The notes under the pieces were generated by a model that searched no databases, was not told the origin of the DNA, and worked only from the letters and a program-made list of their open reading frames with translations. 64,000 nucleotides of DNA, from positions 146,799 through 210,798 of the forward strand of contig JACNJL010000026.1 of NCBI GenBank assembly GCA_014382585.1, written 5' to 3'. The translations under genes were made by a program, and so were the position numbers. How positions within the stretch are numbered: the stretch's first letter is position 1; every line of letters begins with the position of its first letter. The DNA is from Limisphaerales bacterium (GTDB lineage Bacteria; Verrucomicrobiota; Verrucomicrobiia; Limisphaerales; UBA1100). Below are positions 3,818 through 47,768 of this stretch, piece after piece.

Positions 3818-6800
3818 ATGGCGAGGAAAACTAAATCAAACGCGTCGGCGCCTCTCGCGCCGGTGAAGTTATTGGCGGCCAATCGCAGCGAAATTGCAAT
3901 CCGCATCTTTCGCGCGGCCACGGAAATGGATCTGCGCACGGTGGCCATTTACGCGCAGGAAGACCGGCTGGCGGTGCATCGGTTTAAGGCCGATGAGGCG
4001 TATATGGTGGGCGTGGGCAAGGGGCCGGTGGGCGCGTATCTCGATATTGAAGGCATCGTCGGGATGGCTTCCGAGCGCGGGGTCAATCTGGTGCATCCCG
4101 GCTACGGATTTTTGGCTGAGAATGCGGATTTTGCCGAGGCGTGCGCCAAGGCGGGAATGACGTTTGTGGGGCCGCGCCCGGAGTTGCTGCGCCAAATGGG
4201 AGACAAAACCGAAGCGCGTGCGCTGGCGAAGGCCGCCGGCGTGCCGGTGTTGCCCGGCACGGATGACGCCATCAAGACTCGCGCCAAGGCGGTGAAGGTT
4301 GCCAAGCAAATCGGGTTTCCGCTCATTATTAAAGCTGCCTTCGGCGGTGGCGGGCGCGGGATGCGGGTGGTGCATCAAGCCAAGGATTTGGAGCGGTTGC
4401 TCGATGAAGCGCGTGGCGAGGCGGATCGTGCGTTTGGGAATCCGGCGGTGTTCCTCGAAAAGTATGTGCAAAATGCCAAGCACATTGAGGTGCAAATCCT
4501 GGGCGATCAACACGGCAACGTTTTGCATTTGCACGAACGCGATTGCTCGGTGCAGCGGCGTTATCAAAAGGTGGTGGAGATCGCCCCAAGTGTGGCGCTT
4601 GACGAAACGGTGCGGAACGAACTCTGCGCGGCATCGTTGCAATTGGCCAAGCACATCCGATACGACAACGCGGGTACGATGGAATTTCTGTACGATATGG
4701 ATTCCAAGGCGTGGTATTTCATTGAGATGAATCCGCGCATTCAAGTGGAGCACACGGTTACAGAAGTGGTGACAGGCATTGACCTCGTGCGCTCGCAGAT
4801 TCAAGTGGCACAAGGGCACGCGTTGCACGGCGACATGATGCAGCTGCCCAAGCAGAAAAATGTGAAGTGCGTCGGTCACGCTGTGCAATGCCGCGTGACG
4901 ACTGAAGATCCTGCCAACAATTTCACGCCCGATTATGGGCGCATTATCGCCTATCGCTCGGCGGCTGGTTTTGGACTTCGGCTCGATGGCGGGCAGGGCG
5001 ATGCGGGCAGTGTGATCACGCCTTTTTACGATTCGTTGCTGGTGAAAATCACCGCGAGCGGGATGAGCTTTCCGCTTGCGCTGGATCGGATGAAGCGCGC
5101 GTTGAAGGAATTTCGAATTCGCGGCGTGCAGACGAATATTCCGTTTCTTGAGAACGTGATCAAAAACGAAACGTTTCGTAGCGGGCAAGCGAGCACGGCC
5201 TTGATCGATAACACGCCGGGATTGTTTGCCTTCAAGCGTCGGCGCGATCGGGCGAACCGGTTGCTCAATTACATCGGCGACGTGGCGGTGAATGGAAATC
5301 CACAGACGAAAGGCTTTGAAGTGAAGGAGCCTTTTAAAGCGATTGCGCCGCCGAAACACAATGGCGACACCGAGCCGCCTGCGGGCACGCGGCAGATTTT
5401 ACTCGAACAAGGCCCTGAAAAATTCGCCGAGTGGACGCGCAAACAAAAGCGGTTGCTTGTCACCGACACCACCCTGCGCGATGCGCACCAAAGCCTCTTT
5501 GCGACCCGAATGCGCACGGCGGATATGCTGCGCATCGCCGACGCCGTCGCGCATCGCGCGGCCGGACTATTCAGCCTCGAGATGTGGGGGGGCGCGACGT
5601 TCGACACCGCAATGCGTTTTCTGCGCGAAGACCCTTGGCAACGCCTGCGCCAACTGCGCGAGGCGGTTCCTAATATCTGTTTCCAAATGCTCTTTCGCGG
5701 ATCCAATGCCGTGGGCTATTCGGATTATCCCGACAACGTCGTGCGGGCGTTTGTCAAACACGCTGCTGAAAGTGGCATGGATATTTTCCGAATTTTTGAT
5801 TCGCTCAATTACCTTCCCAACCTCAAGGCCGCGATGGAGGCGGTGCAGCACACGCACGCGGTGTGCGAGGGCACCATTTGTTACACCGGCAATATTCTCG
5901 ACGGCCGGCGCGACAAGTATCCGCTGGAGTACTACGTGAAACTCGCGAAGGAACTCGAGAAAATGGGCGCGCACACGCTCTGTATTAAAGATATGGCGGG
6001 CTTGTGCCGTCCGTATGCCGCGCACAAGCTGGTGAAAACTTTGCGTGGTGAAGTGGGGTTGCCGATTCATTTTCACACGCACGACACCAGCGGCGTGAAT
6101 GCTGCATCGGTGCTCAAGGCGTCGGAAGCCGGCGTGGATATTGTTGACCTCGCGGTTGCGTCGCTCTCCGGTTCCACCAGTCAGCCAAACCTGAACAGCG
6201 TGGTGGCCGCGCTGGATCATACGCCGCGCGAGACGGGTTTGGATCTGAGCACGTTAAATGAATTTTCCGATTACTGGGAGCAAGTGCGCAAAGTATACGC
6301 GCCGTTCGACACCGGCCCGCGCAGTGGCATTGGCGATATTTACGAGCACGAAATGCCCGGCGGCCAATACACGAATCTGCGTGAACAAGCGGAGAGCATG
6401 GGCCTCGGCGCGCGTTGGAAGGAAGTGGCGCGCACGTACGCGGAGGTGAACGATTTGTTTGGCGACATCGTGAAAGTGACGCCGTCCAGCAAAGTGGTGG
6501 GCGATATGACGATGTTTTTGGTCACGCGCGGCATCAAGCCGGCGGACGTGGTGAACCTTGAGCCGGGATCCACGCCTTTCCCGCAATCAGTGATTGATAT
6601 GATGAGAGGCCGGCTTGGTAAACCCCTCGGCGGTTGGCCGCGCCAAGTGCAGCGAGTGGTGCTCGGAAAACAAAAACCGCTCAAGGGTCGCCCCGGTGCG
6701 GACTTGAAGCCGCTCAACCTCGAGCGCACGCGCAAAAAACTGGAAGGCGAAATCCATCGCAAAGCCGGCGACGATGCGTTGTTGAGTTTCCTGATGTATC

Positions 6801-7303
6801 CCGACGTGTTTCGGGAATACAACAAATTCCGGCGCGAGTATGGCGATGTCTCCGTGCTGCCGAGTTCCACATATTTTTATGGGCTCAATCCCGGCGAGGA
6901 AATCGCCGTGGACATTGAAGAGGGCAAGACGCTTTACATCAAGCTCATCAACATCAGCGCGCCGGACGAAGATGGATTGCGCACGCTGACCTTCGAGCTG
7001 AACGGTTACCCGCGCGAAGTGGAGATTGCCGATGCCTCGCTCAACGTGCAGGAAAAAGCCCAAGCCCAAGCCGATCCCGGCAATGATCTGCACGTGGGCG
7101 CGCCCATCCCCGGGATCATCACCGAGCTGGCCGTGGGCGTGGGCGCCAAAGTTTCGAAGGGCGACAAACTGATCACGATGGAGGCAATGAAAATGCAAAC
7201 CACGGTTTACGCCGCGGCCGATGGGGTGGTGGGCGTCATCCACGTTGGCATTGGCGAATCGGTAGAGGCAAAAGATCTCGTAATGGAATTGCGCGAAGGT
7301 TAG
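3818..7303 (+). CDS. pyc: Pyruvate carboxylase
   Basis: An 1161-residue single-chain biotin enzyme that carboxylates pyruvate to oxaloacetate (anaplerosis) in the cytoplasm. The order is biotin carboxylase (about 15-470), with glycine-rich ATP loop GGGGRGM near 176 and EMNPRIQVEHTVTE near 305; carboxyltransferase (about 545-815), opening with TTLRDAHQSLFATRMR and with the metal-site HFHTHDTSG; a PYC/OADA domain; and a C-terminal biotinyl domain with EAMKM, where K1125 is the biotin attachment site. The length is normal for the four-domain alpha4 enzyme. The start ATG at 3818 is followed by a short basic lead. It stands alone, with the next gene convergent 11 bp away. Confidence 0.96.
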   Translation: MARKTKSNASAPLAPVKLLAANRSEIAIRIFRAATEMDLRTVAIYAQEDRLAVHRFKADEAYMVGVGKGPVGAYLDIEGIVGMASERGVNLVHPGYGFLAENADFAEACAKAGMTFVGPRPELLRQMGDKTEARALAKAAGVPVLPGTDDAIKTRAKAVKVAKQIGFPLIIKAAFGGGGRGMRVVHQAKDLERLLDEARGEADRAFGNPAVFLEKYVQNAKHIEVQILGDQHGNVLHLHERDCSVQRRYQKVVEIAPSVALDETVRNELCAASLQLAKHIRYDNAGTMEFLYDMDSKAWYFIEMNPRIQVEHTVTEVVTGIDLVRSQIQVAQGHALHGDMMQLPKQKNVKCVGHAVQCRVTTEDPANNFTPDYGRIIAYRSAAGFGLRLDGGQGDAGSVITPFYDSLLVKITASGMSFPLALDRMKRALKEFRIRGVQTNIPFLENVIKNETFRSGQASTALIDNTPGLFAFKRRRDRANRLLNYIGDVAVNGNPQTKGFEVKEPFKAIAPPKHNGDTEPPAGTRQILLEQGPEKFAEWTRKQKRLLVTDTTLRDAHQSLFATRMRTADMLRIADAVAHRAAGLFSLEMWGGATFDTAMRFLREDPWQRLRQLREAVPNICFQMLFRGSNAVGYSDYPDNVVRAFVKHAAESGMDIFRIFDSLNYLPNLKAAMEAVQHTHAVCEGTICYTGNILDGRRDKYPLEYYVKLAKELEKMGAHTLCIKDMAGLCRPYAAHKLVKTLRGEVGLPIHFHTHDTSGVNAASVLKASEAGVDIVDLAVASLSGSTSQPNLNSVVAALDHTPRETGLDLSTLNEFSDYWEQVRKVYAPFDTGPRSGIGDIYEHEMPGGQYTNLREQAESMGLGARWKEVARTYAEVNDLFGDIVKVTPSSKVVGDMTMFLVTRGIKPADVVNLEPGSTPFPQSVIDMMRGRLGKPLGGWPRQVQRVVLGKQKPLKGRPGADLKPLNLERTRKKLEGEIHRKAGDDALLSFLMYPDVFREYNKFRREYGDVSVLPSSTYFYGLNPGEEIAVDIEEGKTLYIKLINISAPDEDGLRTLTFELNGYPREVEIADASLNVQEKAQAQADPGNDLHVGAPIPGIITELAVGVGAKVSKGDKLITMEAMKMQTTVYAAADGVVGVIHVGIGESVEAKDLVMELREG

Positions 7304-7314
7304 GAGAGGTCTTC

Positions 7315-8340
7315 CTACTTTGGGGTGAAATTCAAATACCGCGGACGGGCGAAAGCGGGTTCAGACGGGGTTTCCAGATTTACTTCAAAAAGGCGTTCGA
7401 GATTATTGCCGGCGAGATCTTCAAGTTCCCAGCCCACTTTCAAACGGAAGCCGTTGTCCGCCCAAGGTTTGGTTGGGCGGAAACGCCAGACGGTTTCGTG
7501 GTGGGAGACTTCGATGTTGCCATCGACCCTTTGGTCTTGCGCATCGAGCACGGTGAGCATCGTGTGCAGCAGCGCCCAATCGAGCGGGTGCGGGAGGGTG
7601 ATCATGAGCGGGTCGCGCGTGTTGGCTTTGGGCGGGGTGATTTCCCAGAACTCGAGATCGGGCTGTGCGCGGTCTGCTTTGGTGGTGGCAAAGGATTTTC
7701 GGAATGAATTTTTCAGGGGCACGCCGGCTTCGGATTGCCATTTTCCAGATATTTCCAGCACGTATCGCTGGTGGGGGTTCAGTGCCGGGCCGAATTCGAG
7801 GTTCAGGTTCACCCCGGTCTTTTGCCGGCCCGGATGGAGCCACAGCGTGAGGCGTTTTCCGTCAGCGCTCCAAAGCTCGGTTTCGCGGAAGGGCTCGTCG
7901 ACGGGTTTGCCGGTGGTGAGGTTGATGAGTTGGAAGTGCTGAAAAATGTTCCCGCGCTGCATGGGTTCGGTGAAGTGGAGGTAAAATTTTAAATGATTGG
8001 CAGGCAGTATTCCGCCGCCGGGATACACGGCGGAAACGCGCGGCGCTGCGGCGCGGATGGCAAAGGTGTGCTCGATGGAGGTGCGTTGGCCATTGGAATC
8101 GGTGTGCACCGCTTCGTAAACTTGACCGGCAAGAAATGGAAAGCGCGGAGTGAATTGAATTTGTCCTGAAACCGTTTGGGTTTTCCCCAACAGAGGTTCC
8201 CCCCCTTTGGGTCGCACGGTGAGGGTGCCGTTGCCGATCGCCACCACCGCGTCTGCCTCGAAATGCAAAGTGGGTTTCGGCAGGCAACAGCCGGTGACCC
8301 AGAGGGCGAACAGCATCAAAAATAGTGCGGACCGGCGCAT
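7315..8340 (-). CDS. Lipoprotein with Ig-like (SbsA-type) domain
   Basis: A 341-residue protein with an N-terminal lipoprotein signal (MRRSALFLMLFALWVTGCC, lipobox VTGC, acylated Cys18). Residues about 95-210 resemble bacterial Ig-like_5/SbsA modules (VSAVYPGGGILPANHLKFYL, then FTEPM and a WSADGKRLTLWLHPGRQKTG stretch), and a second, weaker module follows. There are no catalytic motifs. It probably sits in the periplasm or outer membrane as a structural or binding protein. The gene is divergent from the secretion operon at 8630 and convergent with pyc. Confidence 0.7.
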   Translation of the reverse strand: MRRSALFLMLFALWVTGCCLPKPTLHFEADAVVAIGNGTLTVRPKGGEPLLGKTQTVSGQIQFTPRFPFLAGQVYEAVHTDSNGQRTSIEHTFAIRAAAPRVSAVYPGGGILPANHLKFYLHFTEPMQRGNIFQHFQLINLTTGKPVDEPFRETELWSADGKRLTLWLHPGRQKTGVNLNLEFGPALNPHQRYVLEISGKWQSEAGVPLKNSFRKSFATTKADRAQPDLEFWEITPPKANTRDPLMITLPHPLDWALLHTMLTVLDAQDQRVDGNIEVSHHETVWRFRPTKPWADNGFRLKVGWELEDLAGNNLERLFEVNLETPSEPAFARPRYLNFTPK

Positions 8341-8571
8341 TCCCCAGTCAAGGGATCGCGCGCGGTGGCGGCAAGATTAATCCGGAGTGATCCACGGTAA
8401 CGTTCTGTGCAAGGGAGCGTCTCCAATGTGAAATCACATCATCGAAGAGGGCTTGTTTCCCCCTTGTTTTAGTCGATTTAGGCGCGATATGTGAGGATAA
8501 GTAGCACCGTTTTAGGCTTGCCGATACCGCCAAATGTGGTAGTTTTTCACCGGGCCACAATATCTTGTGGC

Positions 8572-8588
8572 TGCCAATTTGATTGGCA
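8572..8588 (+). promoter_or_regulatory. Perfect stem-loop in the leader of the secretion operon
   Basis: TGCCAAT (8572-8578) and ATTGGCA (8582-8588) form a 7-bp stem with loop TTG, 41 nt before the ATG at 8630. If translation began at the in-frame GTG 8567 the hairpin would be coding, so its position mildly favours the ATG start. The 289 bp between 8341 and 8629 otherwise holds the divergent promoters, which I could not place with confidence. Confidence 0.35.
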
Positions 8589-8629
8589 AAAGGGGTAAAT
8601 GGGCGCCTGGAAACGGGCGGGGTGTAGGG

Positions 8630-10375
8630 ATGGCATATACTTCATTCAGGGACTTTTGTGTCGCCGCGCAATTAGCGGAGCCGGATCAGTTTGACCAATG
8701 GCAGTCGGATTGGCGTGCGGAGCGTGTTGGCGGCACGGAGGCGGGCACCTTGCCGGAATTTCTTTGTAAACGCAGTGGTAAGACTGAAGCTGATTTTCTC
8801 TCGCGAGTGGCTGAGGCTTACGATTGGCAGCGCGTTGAATTGGTTGACGTAAAGCCCACCGCCGAGGCGCGCCGCCGTATCTCTTCCAAGATCGCTTCGC
8901 AATATCGCGTAGTCCCAATCAGCGTGGAGGAAGGGGTGTTGTTAGTGGCGGTGTCCGACCCGTTCAACACGGATTTATTGAACGCGGTTCGTTTTGCCGC
9001 GATGGGGCCGGTGCGATTTGTGTTGTCCTCTTCAGAAGAAATCGAAAAGAGCTACGAGAAATATTACGGTGTGGGCGCAGAGACGATTGATGAATTGGCG
9101 CAGGACGAGGTGGGGGATGAGGATGATTTGGAGCTGATGTTTGGCGATGAAAAGGAAATCGCCGAAGGGGATCAGGAAGCGAGCATCATTAAATTTGTGA
9201 ATCAGGTCATCTGGCAGGCTTACAAGAGCCGGGCAACAGACATCCACTTTGAACCGCACGAGGATGAGCTGCAAATCCGCCATCGCATTGATGGTATTTT
9301 GCATCAGATGCCCTTGCCGGCGGCGCTTAAAGTTTTGCAGGCGGCATTGATCTCGCGCATCAAAGTGATGAGCGGCATGAACATCGCCGAGAAACGCATG
9401 CCGCAGGACGGTCGGATCAACGTGCGCGTCAAAGGTGAGGAGATTGATATTCGTGTTTCCACCGTGCCCACGGTGTACGGCGAGAGCGTGTCGCTCCGTC
9501 TGCTCACACGTGGCAGCGTGCTCAAGGGGATGGACAGCCTCGGGATGACCGGCCGCATCGAGCAGGGTATCCGCGAAATCATCACCAAGCCGCATGGCAT
9601 CATGCTGGTCACCGGGCCCACCGGCTCGGGTAAGTCCACTTCGCTTTATTCCTTCCTCAACACCATTAACTCCATCGATAAGCGCATCATGACGGTGGAG
9701 GATCCGGTGGAGTATGAAATGAAGGGCATTAACCAAGTGTCGGTTAAAAACGATATTGGGCGCTCCTTTGCGCACGTGCTGCGGCATTTTTTGCGACAGG
9801 ATCCGGATGTGATAATGGTCGGTGAGATTCGTGATGGCGAGACGGCGGAGATTGCGATTCAAGCCGCCAATACTGGCCACCTCGTGTTTAGTACGCTGCA
9901 CACCAACGATGCGCCCAGCGCCTATACGCGGCTCATCGATATGGGCACGGAACCCTTTCTGGTGGCCGACGCTATCGAGGCGATCATGGCTCAGCGGTTG
10001 GTGCGGACATTGTGCCCGGAATGCCGGGTTGAGCAACAGGTGGCGAAGGAATACCTGTTGAAAGTAGAATTCCCGCCCGCCCAGATTTCGCAGGCGCAGT
10101 TTTGGCATGGGGCCGGATGCGATGCGTGTGGCGGTCGGGGGTATCAGGGACGTACGGGCATCTACGAATTATTGGTGGCGAGCGAGGCGATTCAGCAACT
10201 GGTCATTGATCGCGCGGCGGCTTCACTAATCGCCGCTCAGGCGCGAGCGGAAGGGATGGTTACCCTTCGCGAATACGGCTGGGGCCAAACGTTGGCGGGC
10301 AAGACATCGATCGAAGAAGTGTTGCGCGTCACCCAGTCGCCCGATTCGGGTAACGAACCTCAGGAGAATTTTTAG
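8630..10375 (+). CDS. gspE: Type II secretion / type IV pilus assembly ATPase (GspE/PilB)
   Basis: A 581-residue cytoplasmic hexameric ATPase that powers pseudopilus or pilus assembly. N-terminal GspE-N-like domain (about 1-140), then the ATPase core. Walker A GPTGSGKST begins at residue 329, the Asp box VEDPVEYEM follows, Walker B is in IMVGEIRDGETAE, and the His box is FSTLHTNDAPSA. A zinc-binding tetracysteine is present: CPEC at 462-465 and CDAC at 497-500, typical of GspE and PilB. I chose ATG 8630 over the in-frame GTG 8567 because family members begin just before the FRDFC-like helix. Its stop TAG shares a base with the GTG start of the next gene, so the two are translationally coupled. 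Confidence 0.9.
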   Translation: MAYTSFRDFCVAAQLAEPDQFDQWQSDWRAERVGGTEAGTLPEFLCKRSGKTEADFLSRVAEAYDWQRVELVDVKPTAEARRRISSKIASQYRVVPISVEEGVLLVAVSDPFNTDLLNAVRFAAMGPVRFVLSSSEEIEKSYEKYYGVGAETIDELAQDEVGDEDDLELMFGDEKEIAEGDQEASIIKFVNQVIWQAYKSRATDIHFEPHEDELQIRHRIDGILHQMPLPAALKVLQAALISRIKVMSGMNIAEKRMPQDGRINVRVKGEEIDIRVSTVPTVYGESVSLRLLTRGSVLKGMDSLGMTGRIEQGIREIITKPHGIMLVTGPTGSGKSTSLYSFLNTINSIDKRIMTVEDPVEYEMKGINQVSVKNDIGRSFAHVLRHFLRQDPDVIMVGEIRDGETAEIAIQAANTGHLVFSTLHTNDAPSAYTRLIDMGTEPFLVADAIEAIMAQRLVRTLCPECRVEQQVAKEYLLKVEFPPAQISQAQFWHGAGCDACGGRGYQGRTGIYELLVASEAIQQLVIDRAAASLIAAQARAEGMVTLREYGWGQTLAGKTSIEEVLRVTQSPDSGNEPQENF

Positions 10376-39709: not shown

Positions 39710-40984
39710 CTAACGCCCACGCGGACCACGATCACCACCGCGTTGCGGGCCGTGTCCTTTTGGACCACGATCACCGCCGCGTTGAGGGCCGTGTCCTTGA
39801 GGGCCGCGAGCGCCACCACGTTGTGGGCCGTGGCCTTGAGGGCCGCGAATGCCACCGCGTTGTGGGCCGTGGCCTTGAGGGCCAAACTTTGCTTGGGGCG
39901 CGGGGCCGCGTTTGCAATGCGGGCACACTCCGGAAGGCTTGCCTTGCTGCGGGCCACGAGGGCCGCGTTGGCTTTGAGCCATCCGTTGGCGCATTTGGAT
40001 GATGCCGTGTCCCGGGCCTTGTTGGGGAGCGCGACTTTGGCCGAAGCGTTGTGGGCTCATTTGCTGGCGAGCTTGGGCGAATTGCTTGATGCGTTCGCCG
40101 ATGGCCTTGCGGATGTCATCGCCCGAAGGTCGATGCTGTTGCGAGTTGCGGCCCCAGTTTCCTTGGGCCGATTGGGCGCGCGCTTCCTGATATTTTTTCA
40201 TGCGCTCGGCCCATGCTTTGCGGGCGTCGTCACCTCGTGAGGAAGGCTTGCGGGTTTGGGGTTTGCGATCGCTATCGCGTCCTTGGGCTGCTTTGGCGCG
40301 CGCTTCCTGATATTTTTTCATCCGCTCGGCCCATGCTTTTCGTGCTTCATCACTTCGAGAGGAAGGCTGGAGGGTTTGGGGTTTGCGGTCGCTATCGCGA
40401 TGATTATTTTGGGCCGCTCGGCTGGTGATTTTGGAATGCAGTGCCATGAACTCTTTTTTGTCGATAAAACCATCGCGGTTCGAATCAATCTTTGTAAAGC
40501 CGATCCCTGAGGTCATCCGCTCGGGAGCTTCTTTTACGGAGATTTTTCCGTCTTTGTTTTTGTCGTTTGCCATGAAAATCATCAACGGGTTTGCTCCGGT
40601 GGAGGCGCCATCGCGCCGAGGCACATCGGGCCGCGGGGGCCGTGAAGTTGGGGCATCGGATTTTCTGGAACTTTGTGCCCGCGACGCGTTGTGGCGCTCG
40701 ATGGCTTGGCGCGCCCAATCGGCATCGCGGTTGTTGTTTTGCGCGTTTTTCTGTTGGTTATCTGAGAAAAATGCGCGTCGATAAGCCGCTCGGCCTTGCT
40801 CATCGAGGCTGCGGAGGAATGTCATTTTCTCCCGATAATCCAGCGTTCCATCGCCGTTTCGGTCAAATTTTTTGGTGATTTCGCTTTTTGACAGGGTTTT
40901 CGGGCCGGATTGATCATCGGCATTGCCTGAAATCACCGCAATTCCAGCGGTTAACAAGGCGAAGGTAAGTTTACAATTTTTCAT
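39710..40984 (-). CDS. Secreted EF-hand protein with repetitive basic tail
   Basis: A 424-residue protein with a signal peptide (1-22, cleavage near SGNA-D). Three EF-hand calcium loops are visible: DRNGDGTLDYRE (41-52), DKNKDGKISVKE (141-152) and DSNRDGFIDKKE (167-178). Residues 197-276 are two 40-residue repeats containing ARKAWAERMKKYQEARA. A CPHC pair lies at 354-357. The tail is four 13-residue repeats of the GPQGHGPQRGGxR type and is extremely Gly/Arg/Gln-rich. It is likely exported and calcium-binding, with a sticky low-complexity end. I do not recognise a specific function. Confidence 0.75.
   Translation of the reverse strand: MKNCKLTFALLTAGIAVISGNADDQSGPKTLSKSEITKKFDRNGDGTLDYREKMTFLRSLDEQGRAAYRRAFFSDNQQKNAQNNNRDADWARQAIERHNASRAQSSRKSDAPTSRPPRPDVPRRDGASTGANPLMIFMANDKNKDGKISVKEAPERMTSGIGFTKIDSNRDGFIDKKEFMALHSKITSRAAQNNHRDSDRKPQTLQPSSRSDEARKAWAERMKKYQEARAKAAQGRDSDRKPQTRKPSSRGDDARKAWAERMKKYQEARAQSAQGNWGRNSQQHRPSGDDIRKAIGERIKQFAQARQQMSPQRFGQSRAPQQGPGHGIIQMRQRMAQSQRGPRGPQQGKPSGVCPHCKRGPAPQAKFGPQGHGPQRGGIRGPQGHGPQRGGARGPQGHGPQRGGDRGPKGHGPQRGGDRGPRGR
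39728..39883 (-). repeat. Four 39-nt tandem repeats (GPQGHGPQRGGxR)
   Basis: Four contiguous 39-nt units encode 13-residue repeats at EF-hand protein residues 368-419, differing mainly at positions 3 and 12. Seen directly in the coding sequence. Confidence 0.9.
40157..40396 (-). repeat. Two 120-nt tandem repeats in the EF-hand gene
   Basis: Residues 197-236 and 237-276 are duplicates beginning DSDRKPQT and containing ARKAWAERMKKYQEARA. They are nearly identical at DNA level too, so the duplication is recent or under homogenisation. Confidence 0.9.
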
Positions 40985-44317: not shown

Positions 44318-45373
44318 TCATCGAGGGAAGCGATCCGTCATCAACACTCGCAATCCCCCGCTTTCATCCATCAACACAAATCGCATTCCAAAACGTTCGC
44401 CTAATTTCTCTTGGCTCTTTTTTACGCCCATTACGGAGGCGGCGGTGGCGTAGGCGTCGGATTCAAAACAGGTGGGCGCAGTGAGGGTGCAGGCGGCGAT
44501 GCCTTGGATGGGTTTGCCGGTGCGGGGGTCGAGCAAATGCCCGTAGCGTTTGCCATCGATGATCATAAAGTTTTCGTATTGGCCCGAGGTGCTCATTGCG
44601 CCCGAACGTAGTTTTACGGGGGTGCGCTGGCCTTTTTTTTCGGGGTCTTCGAGCCGGATGATCCAGTGTTTTTTGCCGGGTGGGAGTCCGATCACACGGA
44701 GGTCGCCGCCGGCTTTGACCTTTGCATTTTGGATGCCATGGCGTTGCAGCGCGGCGATGGCGCGGTCCACGGCGTAGCCTTTGCCGAAGCCGCCGGGGTC
44801 GATGGTCATATCGTGCGCGCCTTTGATAAAGTGATTTTCTTTTATTTCTATGTGACGAAAATTCACTTTGGTGAGCACGATGCGTAATTCTCTTTCGGTG
44901 GGCATTCGATAGCCTTCTTTTTTGATGAAGCCCCACAGATCGGCGAGCGGGCGGATGGTGGGATCAAATGCGCCGTCGGTTTCTTTGGCGATGTCGAGGG
45001 CGCGTTGGATGACGGGGGTGAGTTCGGGGCTTAGATCGCCGCTGTCATTGGCGCGGGCGAGGGCGCTGTCGGGGCGATGGATGCTGAGGAGTTTGTCGGC
45101 GCCGCGAAATTCATCGAAAGCAGCGGCGATGGCGGGCTGCGCCTTGGCGGCATCGGCATAAACGGTGATGGAAACAAACGTGCCGAGGTGCGGCTGAACG
45201 CGCGTGACCGGGGCAATGGCTTCCGCGTTAGCGGGCGGCCAGCTTTGGCAGCCGCTTAGCAGACACCAGAGCAGGGCGCAGCACCAACTGCCAAGTATGG
45301 CACACGCGCCGGACGCCTTCGGTGACGTTGCGGCACGAGATGGTGGCACCGGCGATGTTGGCGATATCGTCAT
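44318..45373 (-). CDS. apbE: FAD:protein FMN transferase, probable lipoprotein
   Basis: About 351 residues; it flavinylates proteins by moving FMN from FAD to a Ser/Thr. LGTFVSITVYADA is the family opening, followed by SIHRPDSAL, DGAFDPTIRPLADLWGF, TIDPGGFGKGYAVD, AKVKAGGDLRVIG and GHLLDPRTGKP, ending with TCFESDAYATAASVMG for metal binding. A CCALLWCLLSGC stretch indicates a lipoprotein signal with lipobox LSGC. The start is uncertain: ATG 45373 gives a long n-region, and no better ATG is closer. It overlaps the upstream FMN-binding protein gene by about 146 nt if so. Confidence 0.85.
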   Translation of the reverse strand: MTISPTSPVPPSRAATSPKASGACAILGSWCCALLWCLLSGCQSWPPANAEAIAPVTRVQPHLGTFVSITVYADAAKAQPAIAAAFDEFRGADKLLSIHRPDSALARANDSGDLSPELTPVIQRALDIAKETDGAFDPTIRPLADLWGFIKKEGYRMPTERELRIVLTKVNFRHIEIKENHFIKGAHDMTIDPGGFGKGYAVDRAIAALQRHGIQNAKVKAGGDLRVIGLPPGKKHWIIRLEDPEKKGQRTPVKLRSGAMSTSGQYENFMIIDGKRYGHLLDPRTGKPIQGIAACTLTAPTCFESDAYATAASVMGVKKSQEKLGERFGMRFVLMDESGGLRVLMTDRFPR

Positions 45374-45827
45374 TGAGTTTGAGTTTGGAGCGGTTGTCTT
45401 TGGCTTGAAACTGATTGCGCCAACCGGCACGCCGCACTTCATCGCCGATGCTTTCGCGGTATTCAAGAATTTCAATGCAGCGCACTTTGCCCACGGCATC
45501 GAGCGCGACCGCGAAGTCGATGGCTTCGTGTTTGCCTTTGACGCGATCGATTATCACCGCGCCGATTACTTGGCCATCTTTCATCGCGATGGCGTACCAC
45601 GCGCCGGGGAGTTTCAAGGGCACACCGGAAGCCTTTTGGATTTGGGCCGCTTCGGCGGCGGTGAATTTGCGCTGTTGCCATTCAAATTTGTCGGCTTCGG
45701 GGAAACACAGTTTTTGCGCCTGCATCGGCGTAAGATAGCGCATCGCCTGCGTGGGCAGGGCGGTTAGCAACAATACCGCCGCGAGGGCGAGCCAAGTGAG
45801 CTGTGTTTGCTGTATGTTGCGTTTCAT
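45228..45827 (-). CDS. Secreted FMN-binding-domain protein, likely ApbE substrate
   Basis: A 199-residue protein with a signal peptide (MKRNIQQTQLTWLALAAVLL, cleavage near PTQA-M). The FMN-bind region (about 75-175) has WYAIAMKDGQVIGAVII and ends in AGATISCRNVTEGVRR. The GAT-x-S element (159-164) matches the [S/T]GAT-x-[S/T] acceptor of flavinylated proteins such as NqrC/RnfG, with T162 as the putative FMN attachment site; the first position is Ala rather than Ser/Thr. The ApbE enzyme is encoded immediately downstream. It likely acts as a periplasmic electron carrier. A start at 45839 is also possible. Confidence 0.8.
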   Translation of the reverse strand: MKRNIQQTQLTWLALAAVLLLTALPTQAMRYLTPMQAQKLCFPEADKFEWQQRKFTAAEAAQIQKASGVPLKLPGAWYAIAMKDGQVIGAVIIDRVKGKHEAIDFAVALDAVGKVRCIEILEYRESIGDEVRRAGWRNQFQAKDNRSKLKLNDDIANIAGATISCRNVTEGVRRVCHTWQLVLRPALVSAKRLPKLAAR

Positions 45828-45840
45828 TTTTTGCGGCAAA

Positions 45841-45866
45841 TCGACGCCCGTGAAAACGGGCGTCGA
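45841..45866. terminator. Strong stem-loop after the porin gene
   Basis: TCGACGCCCGT (45841-45851), loop GAAA, ACGGGCGTCGA (45856-45866): 11-bp perfect stem with a 4-nt loop. It lies in the 80-bp gap between the porin stop (45908) and the FMN-binding gene start (45827). On the minus strand it is followed by TTTGCC, a weak T-run, so may be an attenuating or processing hairpin rather than a full terminator. Confidence 0.5.
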
Positions 45867-45907
45867 TGGTGCAGTGGTTAACCGATCCTATTTTTTGCTC
45901 CGGGAAC

Positions 45908-47158
45908 CTAAAATTGGTAGCCAACGCCGATGGAAAATTCGGTGTTGTCGACGTCATCCATTGACTGCCGCACGGCGGCTTTCAATTCCATATGGCGGTT
46001 GAGCTGGTAGTAAACGCCGTAAGTGAGGTAATTGCTTGAGCCGGTGTCGGTAAAGGCGTTGCTGTCTTTGCTGCCTTCAGAGGTGTCGTAGCCTTCCAAT
46101 CGAAAGAAGGGGATGAGTTCCTGATCGCCTTCGAGCACGTGGTGGTAGGCCAGCTCGAGGCGGTAGCCGAACATTCGGTCGCCCACATTCGCATCGGCAA
46201 TGGCGTCGGGGCTGGCGAAGTGCCATTGCGCGTAGTCACCGATCAGCTCAAAGTTGTTCATAAACCCGCTGTGCCACCGGTACTTGGCCTCGATGTCCCA
46301 CAGATAAACATCGGTGTCGGTGGTTGTGGTTTCCTGATAGTTGCCGAAGTAACTGGAGGCGCTGCCGGAAAGGCCTTTGAGCCAGTCGGTGTCGGATGAA
46401 GCACCGTCGTATTCCAGACGCATCGTGTAAGCGAGCTGGCGGTTGTCGCCTTTGGCGTTGAGGTTGGGCCGTGCATCGCGCACACCTTTGGAGCCGTCAG
46501 CAAACGTGCCGTTTTCAGACGATAAACCCTGCGACACGAGGAAGAACCAACTCAAGCCTTCCACCTGCGGCACGTCGCCAAAAAGGCCCATCGAACCTTC
46601 CATCCACGTGGAGGGGACGATGTACTTATACATGATGGGCCGATGCACGGAATAAAACTGATCCGGTTCGTGATGGAGGTTGATGCTGCCAACGGGAATA
46701 AGGCTTACGCCGAGCGAACGCCAGTTGAGCCAGTCGTTGATTTTTACGTCGGAATAAAACTGCTCGATTTCAACTTCACCGCGGAAGCGGCTGTCATCTT
46801 TGTCATCCACACCGCCGTGTTCAATTTCGATTTCGGAATTAAAGTAAGCGTTGTCGCTCAGCTTGAAACCCGGGATGAGCACGAAGCGATGCGGGTCAAA
46901 ATAATTCCCGTTGCTCCCCTTTGTCATATTATACTTGGCCTCACCATAAAAACCGATGGTCAACCCCTTGCCGTGCACCTGATCCAGCCATTCGGGCGGG
47001 CGGTTGGCGGCATCGGCTTCTTTGATTGCATCCAACCGCTGCTGCATCGCGCGGATTTGGTTTTCGAGGGCATCAATGCGGTCATCATCCTGGGCGGCAC
47101 CATTCAATGCGCTCGCCAAAATGGCTGCCGTGCAGGCGAATTTCAGTAGTTCACTCAT
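45908..47158 (-). CDS. Outer membrane porin with N-terminal coiled coil
   Basis: A 416-residue beta-barrel protein. Signal peptide 1-22 (MSELLKFACTAAILASALNGAA), then a short heptad stretch (RIDALENQIRAMQQRLDAIKEAD, about 27-48, in parts), then alternating-strand sequence rich in aromatic and Gly residues, ending in GVGYQF with the C-terminal Phe expected of a BAM-recognised barrel. The architecture resembles OprO/OprP-like and similar porins; substrate unknown. The promoter overlaps a Fur-like box, so iron control is likely. Confidence 0.78.
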   Translation of the reverse strand: MSELLKFACTAAILASALNGAAQDDDRIDALENQIRAMQQRLDAIKEADAANRPPEWLDQVHGKGLTIGFYGEAKYNMTKGSNGNYFDPHRFVLIPGFKLSDNAYFNSEIEIEHGGVDDKDDSRFRGEVEIEQFYSDVKINDWLNWRSLGVSLIPVGSINLHHEPDQFYSVHRPIMYKYIVPSTWMEGSMGLFGDVPQVEGLSWFFLVSQGLSSENGTFADGSKGVRDARPNLNAKGDNRQLAYTMRLEYDGASSDTDWLKGLSGSASSYFGNYQETTTTDTDVYLWDIEAKYRWHSGFMNNFELIGDYAQWHFASPDAIADANVGDRMFGYRLELAYHHVLEGDQELIPFFRLEGYDTSEGSKDSNAFTDTGSSNYLTYGVYYQLNRHMELKAAVRQSMDDVDNTEFSIGVGYQF

Positions 47159-47174
47159 CGGGTTCTTCCTGCAA

Positions 47175-47191
47175 TTGAGACTCGGTCTCGA
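47175..47191. promoter_or_regulatory. Second imperfect inverted repeat before the porin
   Basis: TTGAGAC (47175-47181), 3-nt centre TCG, GTCTCGA (47185-47191): six of seven bases of the dyad match. It lies 17 bp upstream of the porin ATG, near the ribosome site. It resembles the Fur-like box at 47211 and may be a secondary site. Confidence 0.4.
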
Positions 47192-47203
47192 CTTGCTGGG
47201 CCG

Positions 47204-47232
47204 AAGGTAATGAGACTGGTTCTCATCGTCAA
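47204..47232 (-). promoter_or_regulatory. Porin promoter with Fur-like box in the -35/-10 spacer
   Basis: On the minus strand TTGACG (47227-47232), a 17-nt spacer and TACCTT (47204-47209; weak -10). The spacer is the dyad TGAGACTGGTTCTCA (47211-47225), matching the TGAnAnTnnTTnTCA pattern of Fur boxes. Binding there would block RNA polymerase. The fur gene lies immediately upstream at 47295. Confidence 0.6.
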
Positions 47233-47294: not shown

Positions 47295-47768
47295 TTAATG
47301 GTCTTTGTTTTTGCACGCGCCGAGCTTTTTCATCTCTTCGCAGGAGGCGTTAATTCGCAATTGCTGCGATTTCACGGAGAAACCCAGTTTGCTGGAAATC
47401 TCAGTTTCCAACGCATCGAGTTTGTCGCTCTCGAATTCCACAATCTTGTCGCAATCATCGCAAATGATGTGATTATGATTCGGATGATCCGCGTAGTTGG
47501 GGTCGTAAATTTTGTAATCCTTGCCGAAATCCATCTCATGCACGAGGCCGCTCTCAGTGAGCAGCGGCAGCGTGCGATACACCGTGGCGCGGCTGACGCT
47601 TGAGTCGCGTTCGCGGGACCAATCCAGCAATTGCTCAGCGGTAAAATGTTGGTCGGTGCTAAATACGGTCTCCACAATCACCCGGCGCTGCGTGGTGATT
47701 CGCAGATTTTTCTCCTCAAGAAAAGCGATGAACGCTTCCTTCGCTGCCTTCCTGTCCGGTGTGGGCAT
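47295..47768 (-). CDS. fur: Fur family metal-responsive repressor
   Basis: A 157-residue winged-helix repressor. The DNA-binding domain includes TTQRRVIVETVF and SVSRATVYRTLPLLTESGLV. The metal/dimer domain includes HNHIICDDCDKIVEFE, with the CxxC structural zinc pair, and a further C-terminal Cys pair (ASCEEMKKLGAC). Overall it fits Fur better than Zur or PerR by eye, but the subfamily is not certain. It is divergent from cinA (80 bp) and lies upstream of the porin on the same strand. Confidence 0.85.
   Translation of the reverse strand: MPTPDRKAAKEAFIAFLEEKNLRITTQRRVIVETVFSTDQHFTAEQLLDWSRERDSSVSRATVYRTLPLLTESGLVHEMDFGKDYKIYDPNYADHPNHNHIICDDCDKIVEFESDKLDALETEISSKLGFSVKSQQLRINASCEEMKKLGACKNKDH

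Follow-up and report, generated by a model that had tools for sequence, protein, structure and literature searches.

A Fur-boxed porin, FMN_bind and ApbE cluster in a Limisphaerales bacterium as a candidate flavin-based ferric reduction system

We analysed a stretch of 64,000 nucleotides (hereafter the window) from a Limisphaerales bacterium of the verrucomicrobial family UBA1100 (assembly GCA_014382585.1, contig JACNJL010000026.1, positions 146,799 to 210,798). On the minus strand of this window, four genes follow one another in the order fur, porin, FMN_bind and apbE, encoding a Fur-family repressor, an outer-membrane porin, a predicted secreted flavin mononucleotide (FMN)-binding protein and an FMN transferase, respectively. 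We consider it fairly probable, from sequence comparisons, that the cluster forms a Fur-repressed, porin-fed and flavin-based ferric reduction system which supplies the ferrous iron transporter FeoB and is used instead of energy-driven receptors. The initial annotation of this DNA had placed a porin, a protein with a GATxS flavinylation site and ApbE in series with fur adjoining. Both this gene content and its coordinates are borne out by matches to the Pfam families PF01475, PF13505, PF04205 and PF02424. The features of the locus are as follows.

47295–47768, minus strand: fur, Fur-family repressor of 157 amino acids (PF01475, E-value 6.2e-31)
47227–47232, minus strand: −35 hexamer TTGACG of the porin promoter, read from the sequence
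47210–47226, minus strand: 17-nucleotide spacer of the porin promoter, coinciding with the dyad ATGAGAACCAGTCTCAT, read from the sequence
47211–47225, minus strand: Fur-box-like dyad 1, TGAGAACCAGTCTCA, within the 17-nucleotide spacer
47204–47209, minus strand: −10 hexamer TACCTT, weak, with three of six letters of the consensus
47176–47190, minus strand: Fur-box-like dyad 2, CGAGACCGAGTCTCA, just 3' of the expected transcription start
45908–47158, minus strand: porin of 416 amino acids with an N-terminal signal and a coiled coil (PF13505 barrel, E-value 3.6e-7)
45840–45867, minus strand: hairpin of 12 bp with a TTT tail, between the porin and FMN_bind genes
45228–45827, minus strand: FMN_bind protein of 199 amino acids, predicted to be secreted, with a GATIS motif containing T162 (PF04205, E-value 6.4e-9)
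44318 to about 45313, minus strand: apbE, FMN transferase and predicted lipoprotein (PF02424, E-value 2.8e-75; lipobox LLSGC read from the sequence)

The apbE frame and the end of the FMN_bind gene overlap, and the apbE start codon and upstream limit are uncertain.

Promoter dyads and gene order within the family

A Fur-like dyad had been proposed to fill the spacer of the porin promoter, and ATGAGAACCAGTCTCAT indeed spans exactly the 17 nucleotides at 47210–47226. As the dyad occupies the promoter spacer, the polymerase site is covered by it. The second dyad (CGAGACCGAGTCTCA), in the region just downstream, was absent from the initial annotation. A generic promoter scan did not detect the porin promoter, because its −10 hexamer is so far from the consensus. 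Within the family, TTGAC and counterparts of both Fur-box-like dyads are found at the porin promoter of 11 of 11 loci, the window included, and all ten relatives combine TTGAC with a dyad in a 17-nucleotide spacer. The −10 hexamer reads TATCTT or TACCTT in seven of these ten, with other letters in loci L025, L026 and L027.

To what extent this dyad occurs elsewhere in the 3.70-Mb genome (95% complete) was assessed with the pattern GAGAN5TCTCA. Nine listed matches were obtained, corresponding to seven distinct sites, which is more than expected by chance; the backwards pattern gave one match. Four of the seven sites lie within predicted open reading frames (ORFs) and three are intergenic. Two of the latter are those at the porin promoter, 35 bp apart, and the third precedes a feoA-like ORF by about 13 bp, with feoB following this ORF. 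Within the family, the best box-like match of the locus stands 265–275 bp before the FeoB domain in nine of 13 strong feoB loci (the window genome's own included), the remaining four (L120, L122, L123 and L140) lacking a best site at this common place. An operator-like dyad that lies over the porin promoter, is conserved there and is shared with feoAB has the sequence characteristics of a Fur regulon. The genome carries three Fur-family genes, and the position of fur beside the porin gene suggests that its product is the one that binds; another of the three adjoins a SufB-like ORF (recognised by eye). A wider dyad pattern applied to seven genomes was discarded, as it returned mostly unrelated matches, and a palindrome common to four genomes of the genus turned out to be the start of a conserved ORF.

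With regard to gene order, a point raised in the initial annotation, the cluster is syntenic across the family. Most family loci show the order cca, ntrC, apbE, FMN_bind, porin, fur, cinA and pyk; exceptions are L025, with other flanks and fur not adjoining, and L032, in which FMN_bind occurs without apbE. Within the family, fur adjoins the cluster in three genera, one of them that of the window. Both genomes of one other genus contain an extra membrane protein gene between fur and porin, and the one protein scanned matched cytochrome b561 (PF01292, E-value 4e-10, 40.1 bits) as well as DUF4405 (1e-5, 26.1 bits, cut-off 26.7). Furthermore, the 12-bp hairpin in the gap between porin and FMN_bind is present in six of nine family loci (the window, L020, L022, L024, L025 and L028). 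It is a perfect hairpin whose stem letters vary between genera with the pairing kept and the loop conserved. It is possibly an attenuator or RNA-processing site and may result in a lower expression of the carrier than of the porin. In three relatives (L021, L026 and L027), the porin and FMN_bind genes nearly touch and there is no hairpin.

The flavin carrier and related clusters in other phyla

The FMN_bind protein shows the RnfG/NqrC fold (model predicted local distance difference test score, pLDDT, of 83.9). Its N-terminus is hydrophobic as read from the sequence and forms a helix at residues 3–20 in the model, as is typical of a secretion signal. An FMN_bind domain with a GATxS/T motif and an adjacent apbE gene characterise it, at the sequence level, as an ApbE-type carrier, in which T162 is the residue expected to receive the FMN. 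It is the sole FMN_bind protein of the genome and is therefore not an RnfG/NqrC subunit of a sodium pump; membership of RNF/NQR was also rejected on the basis of its score (36 bits compared to an NCBIfam cut-off of 102).

A profile made from 12 FMN_bind proteins of the family retrieved 490 related stretches from the genome collection, of which the best 80, all named, were kept. Several of these 80 loci are the same contigs as the family genomes described above, and their seeds contained GAT[ILM]SC or K[LV]CFP, which biases the conservation of those letters. G160, A161, T162 and S164 are thus found in 80 of 80 homologues with this seed bias. The same holds for Cys165 (45333–45335), directly after the GATxS motif, which is present in all 80 relatives with the same bias; Cys41 (45705–45707) is kept in 21 of the 80. 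According to the record titles, 23 of the best 80 of 490 belong to the Verrucomicrobiota, and the rest are mostly Betaproteobacteria, with some Alpha- and Gammaproteobacteria and one Deltaproteobacterium.

Profile annotation, with counts that refer to the plus strand of the entire locus and reach as far as 10 kb from the match, revealed FMN_bind in 80 loci, ApbE in 77, a membrane protein with four histidines in 62, the porin in 50, DUF6662 in 38, CCP_MauG in 19, FeoB in 18 and Fur in 11. FeoB adjoins the cluster in 16 loci and is located about 5 kb upstream in L060 and L074, and fur is directly beside the cluster in ten. The outer-membrane barrel next to FMN_bind and ApbE is either the window-type porin or DUF6662. 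Hence, the coupling of a flavin carrier to a porin, originally noticed in this single stretch, reappears as a pairing of carrier and outer-membrane barrel that is conserved across phyla. In the four-histidine membrane proteins, H84, H102, H155 and H169 are invariant in 14 aligned sequences, as would be expected of a two-haem transmembrane cytochrome. A divergent arrangement was observed in L169 (Methylocystis heyeri plasmid, 4270–9545), where the genes for a hypothetical protein, an FMN-binding protein, an FMN transferase and a small hypothetical protein precede those for a multicopper oxidase and a ferritin-like protein.

The di-haem peroxidase CCP_MauG heads a cluster of porin, FMN_bind, ApbE and cytochrome genes in Burkholderiales and relatives (L057, L060, L083, L086 and others; 19 of 80), several times behind Fur-box-like sites. 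This could point to another periplasmic redox role, such as peroxide defence, that is iron-regulated only incidentally. Since the window's cluster and 61 of the 80 loci contain no such peroxidase, and the linkage to FeoB and the box before feoAB indicate iron supply, we regard such a role as very unlikely.

Iron control was assessed further by scoring 7-1-7 Fur boxes within 600 bp upstream at a threshold of at least 19.5, using a matrix that was based on the Fur consensus but made more permissive toward the window's box. Seven of the 80 loci were left out, as their contigs end too soon. Fur-box-like sites were detected at 55 of 73 clusters compared to 41 of 614 other upstream regions. Because the matrix had been relaxed in this way, the test was repeated with the classical consensus (at least 11 of 14 letters) on the non-verrucomicrobial loci only, which gave 20 of 55 clusters compared to 23 of 478 controls; for the mirrored pattern, the figures were 0 of 55 clusters and three of 478 controls. 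Together with the conserved promoter dyads and the like dyad before feoAB, these sites at homologous clusters in other phyla argue for the control by Fur and iron suggested in the initial annotation.

Fur control and a flavin carrier would both also be accounted for if the flavinylated protein replaced an iron-containing periplasmic carrier under starvation, as flavodoxin does for ferredoxin, with the porin as a general nutrient entry. An iron-sparing idea of this kind is raised in the parts of PMC8238504 considered here, and a Fur-controlled flavodoxin is predicted in those of PMC545781. However, FeoB adjoins a fifth of the loci (16 of 80), an outer-membrane barrel is the usual neighbour, and the partner cytochrome, where present, would itself require haem iron. 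This explanation therefore appears unlikely to us.

The porin and the alternative barrel

The model of the porin is of modest quality (mean pLDDT 61.6). Foldseek puts general porins first, and in a second comparison OprO/OprP were at the top (VIA Z 21.4 to OprO) with general porins close behind, a ranking that covers the families in the VIA list and in which absence from the list excludes no family. Porin_O_P (PF07396) gave no match to the window porin at an E-value of 0.1 and matched five of 16 porin homologues at 0.01. The porins of the window's family and those of the wider set belong to a single family along their entire length (hhalign E-value 4.6e-90). Seven residues (E109, E111, H114, E132, Q133, H163 and E164) do not vary among the homologues that could be read at these positions (49 of 49; 52 given), and these acidic and histidine residues would suit a path for cations. 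Homology of DUF6662 to the porin was not supported (hhalign probability 21%), and by that comparison DUF6662 is a different barrel family. No mention of DUF6662 was found in the open-licence literature searched.

That the same carrier pairs with two barrel families without detectable homology could also be read in another way. The flavoprotein might dock in or under the barrel and deliver electrons through the outer membrane to iron outside the cell, similar to porin–cytochrome complexes, and carrier and cytochrome together would make a chain toward the outer membrane. Nevertheless, the nearest folds of the porin are OprO/OprP and general porins, which are 16-stranded and have a lumen too narrow for a 20-kDa domain, and the carrier contains a single flavin motif. 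Such a conduit is in our view highly improbable.

Outside the cluster, repeats of 39 and 120 bp were observed at 39723–39884 and 40160–40399 of the window, inside a repeat-rich, EF-hand-like ORF (39710–40984, minus strand; recognised by eye).

Proposed iron route and comparison with known systems

No TonB-receptor Plug domain was found in the window's own genome or in any of the 20 family genomes, ten of which are at least 90% complete, using a search that matched the positive controls E. coli, Caulobacter and Bacteroides. Strong FeoB places were present in 12 of the 20. The FeoB neighbours and the absence of TonB-receptor plugs lend weight to the initial annotation's idea of ferric reduction or uptake, the reaction itself being one that we infer.

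In the Fur-controlled ferric reduction system that we propose, low iron would cause Fur to leave the two boxes and thereby open the porin promoter. The porin would admit small ferric or ferrous species through the outer membrane. ApbE would attach FMN to T162 of the FMN_bind protein, which in its flavinylated form may carry periplasmic electrons and reduce Fe(III) to Fe(II), and the co-regulated FeoAB would import the Fe(II) into the cytoplasm. In the majority of the relatives, the cluster includes the gene of a four-helix b-type cytochrome, which would hand electrons from quinol to the flavin. The window's genus has no cytochrome gene in the cluster and would require another donor. More tentatively, and with somewhat less confidence than for the window itself, it may be speculated that this represents a TonB-free, Fur-controlled uptake system found across phyla, consisting of an iron-dedicated acidic/histidine porin, an ApbE-flavinylated ferric reductase, a four-histidine quinol-linked cytochrome and FeoB, and that it is the main iron route in this family of Verrucomicrobiota free of TonB receptors.

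Several observations weigh against the proposed system. Neither the four-histidine membrane cytochrome nor PepSY_TM was detected in the window's own genome, so that no electron donor was found and the cluster is not of the PepSY-like type. Eight of the 20 family genomes, of which several are incomplete, lack a strong FeoB and gave weak matches, mostly to other GTPases. Two further ApbE genes of the genome (L150 and L152) have no FMN_bind neighbour and lie beside dehydrogenase-like ORFs. In six of the nine verrucomicrobial-titled loci that have a cytochrome, its gene precedes the boxes, and 18 of 73 clusters have no Fur-box-like site at the threshold of at least 19.5. Lastly, the hairpin between porin and FMN_bind could be an end of transcription, and porin, FMN_bind and apbE may not form a single transcript. 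As for candidate donors, the sole PF01292-like match of the genome was rejected as the partner cytochrome, since its sequence identifies it as a cytochrome b fused to cytochrome c domains.

How Gram-negative bacteria free of TonB receptors acquire ferric iron is poorly known. If true, the proposed system would offer a compact answer, namely periplasmic reduction by a covalent flavin, a dedicated outer-membrane porin and supply to FeoB, and would give DUF6662 a likely role. The components have precedents; the searches of the open-licence literature returned no description of the assembled module with Fur boxes and two alternative barrels. A term search of PMC6037834 and PMC3751524 returned no iron-response data for this cluster, the latter describing a DUF2271–ApbE cluster that is induced by low iron, and PMC5566968 does not mention ApbE or FMN. 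Neither PMC8238504 nor PMC11334425 uses the word 'porin' in its main text.

Among the known systems, RnfG/NqrC share the FMN_bind fold with the window protein, which is, however, without an Rnf/Nqr setting. A Fur-controlled porin, psp, was described in 2004 for Geobacter metallireducens and Desulfuromonas, where it has tandem boxes, is weakly similar to PF07396 and was proposed for iron entry (Rodionov et al., PMC545781). By its description it is like the window porin, although the Iron section of that paper mentions no flavin carrier or ApbE. In 2021, flavinylation was linked to iron reduction and assimilation in PepSY-like, VIT1 and P19 clusters, with Fur repression cited for the PepSY-like ones (PMC8238504). 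As far as these clusters are described there, they share with the window module a secreted FMN_bind protein with ApbE, whereas the module is without PepSY_TM and has an outer-membrane barrel, a small cytochrome and FeoB as partners. DUF4405-like and FezC membrane cytochromes with conserved histidines, encoded near apbE, were reported in 2024 (PMC11334425). The DUF4405-like proteins resemble the membrane proteins of the relatives in their conserved histidines and the nearby apbE; DUF4405 is given as six-helix in that report, whereas the proteins of the relatives contain four invariant histidines in about 140–210 amino acids. If the proposed system is correct, it would unite Fur-controlled porins, iron-linked flavinylation and small membrane cytochromes, which have so far been treated separately in the literature examined.

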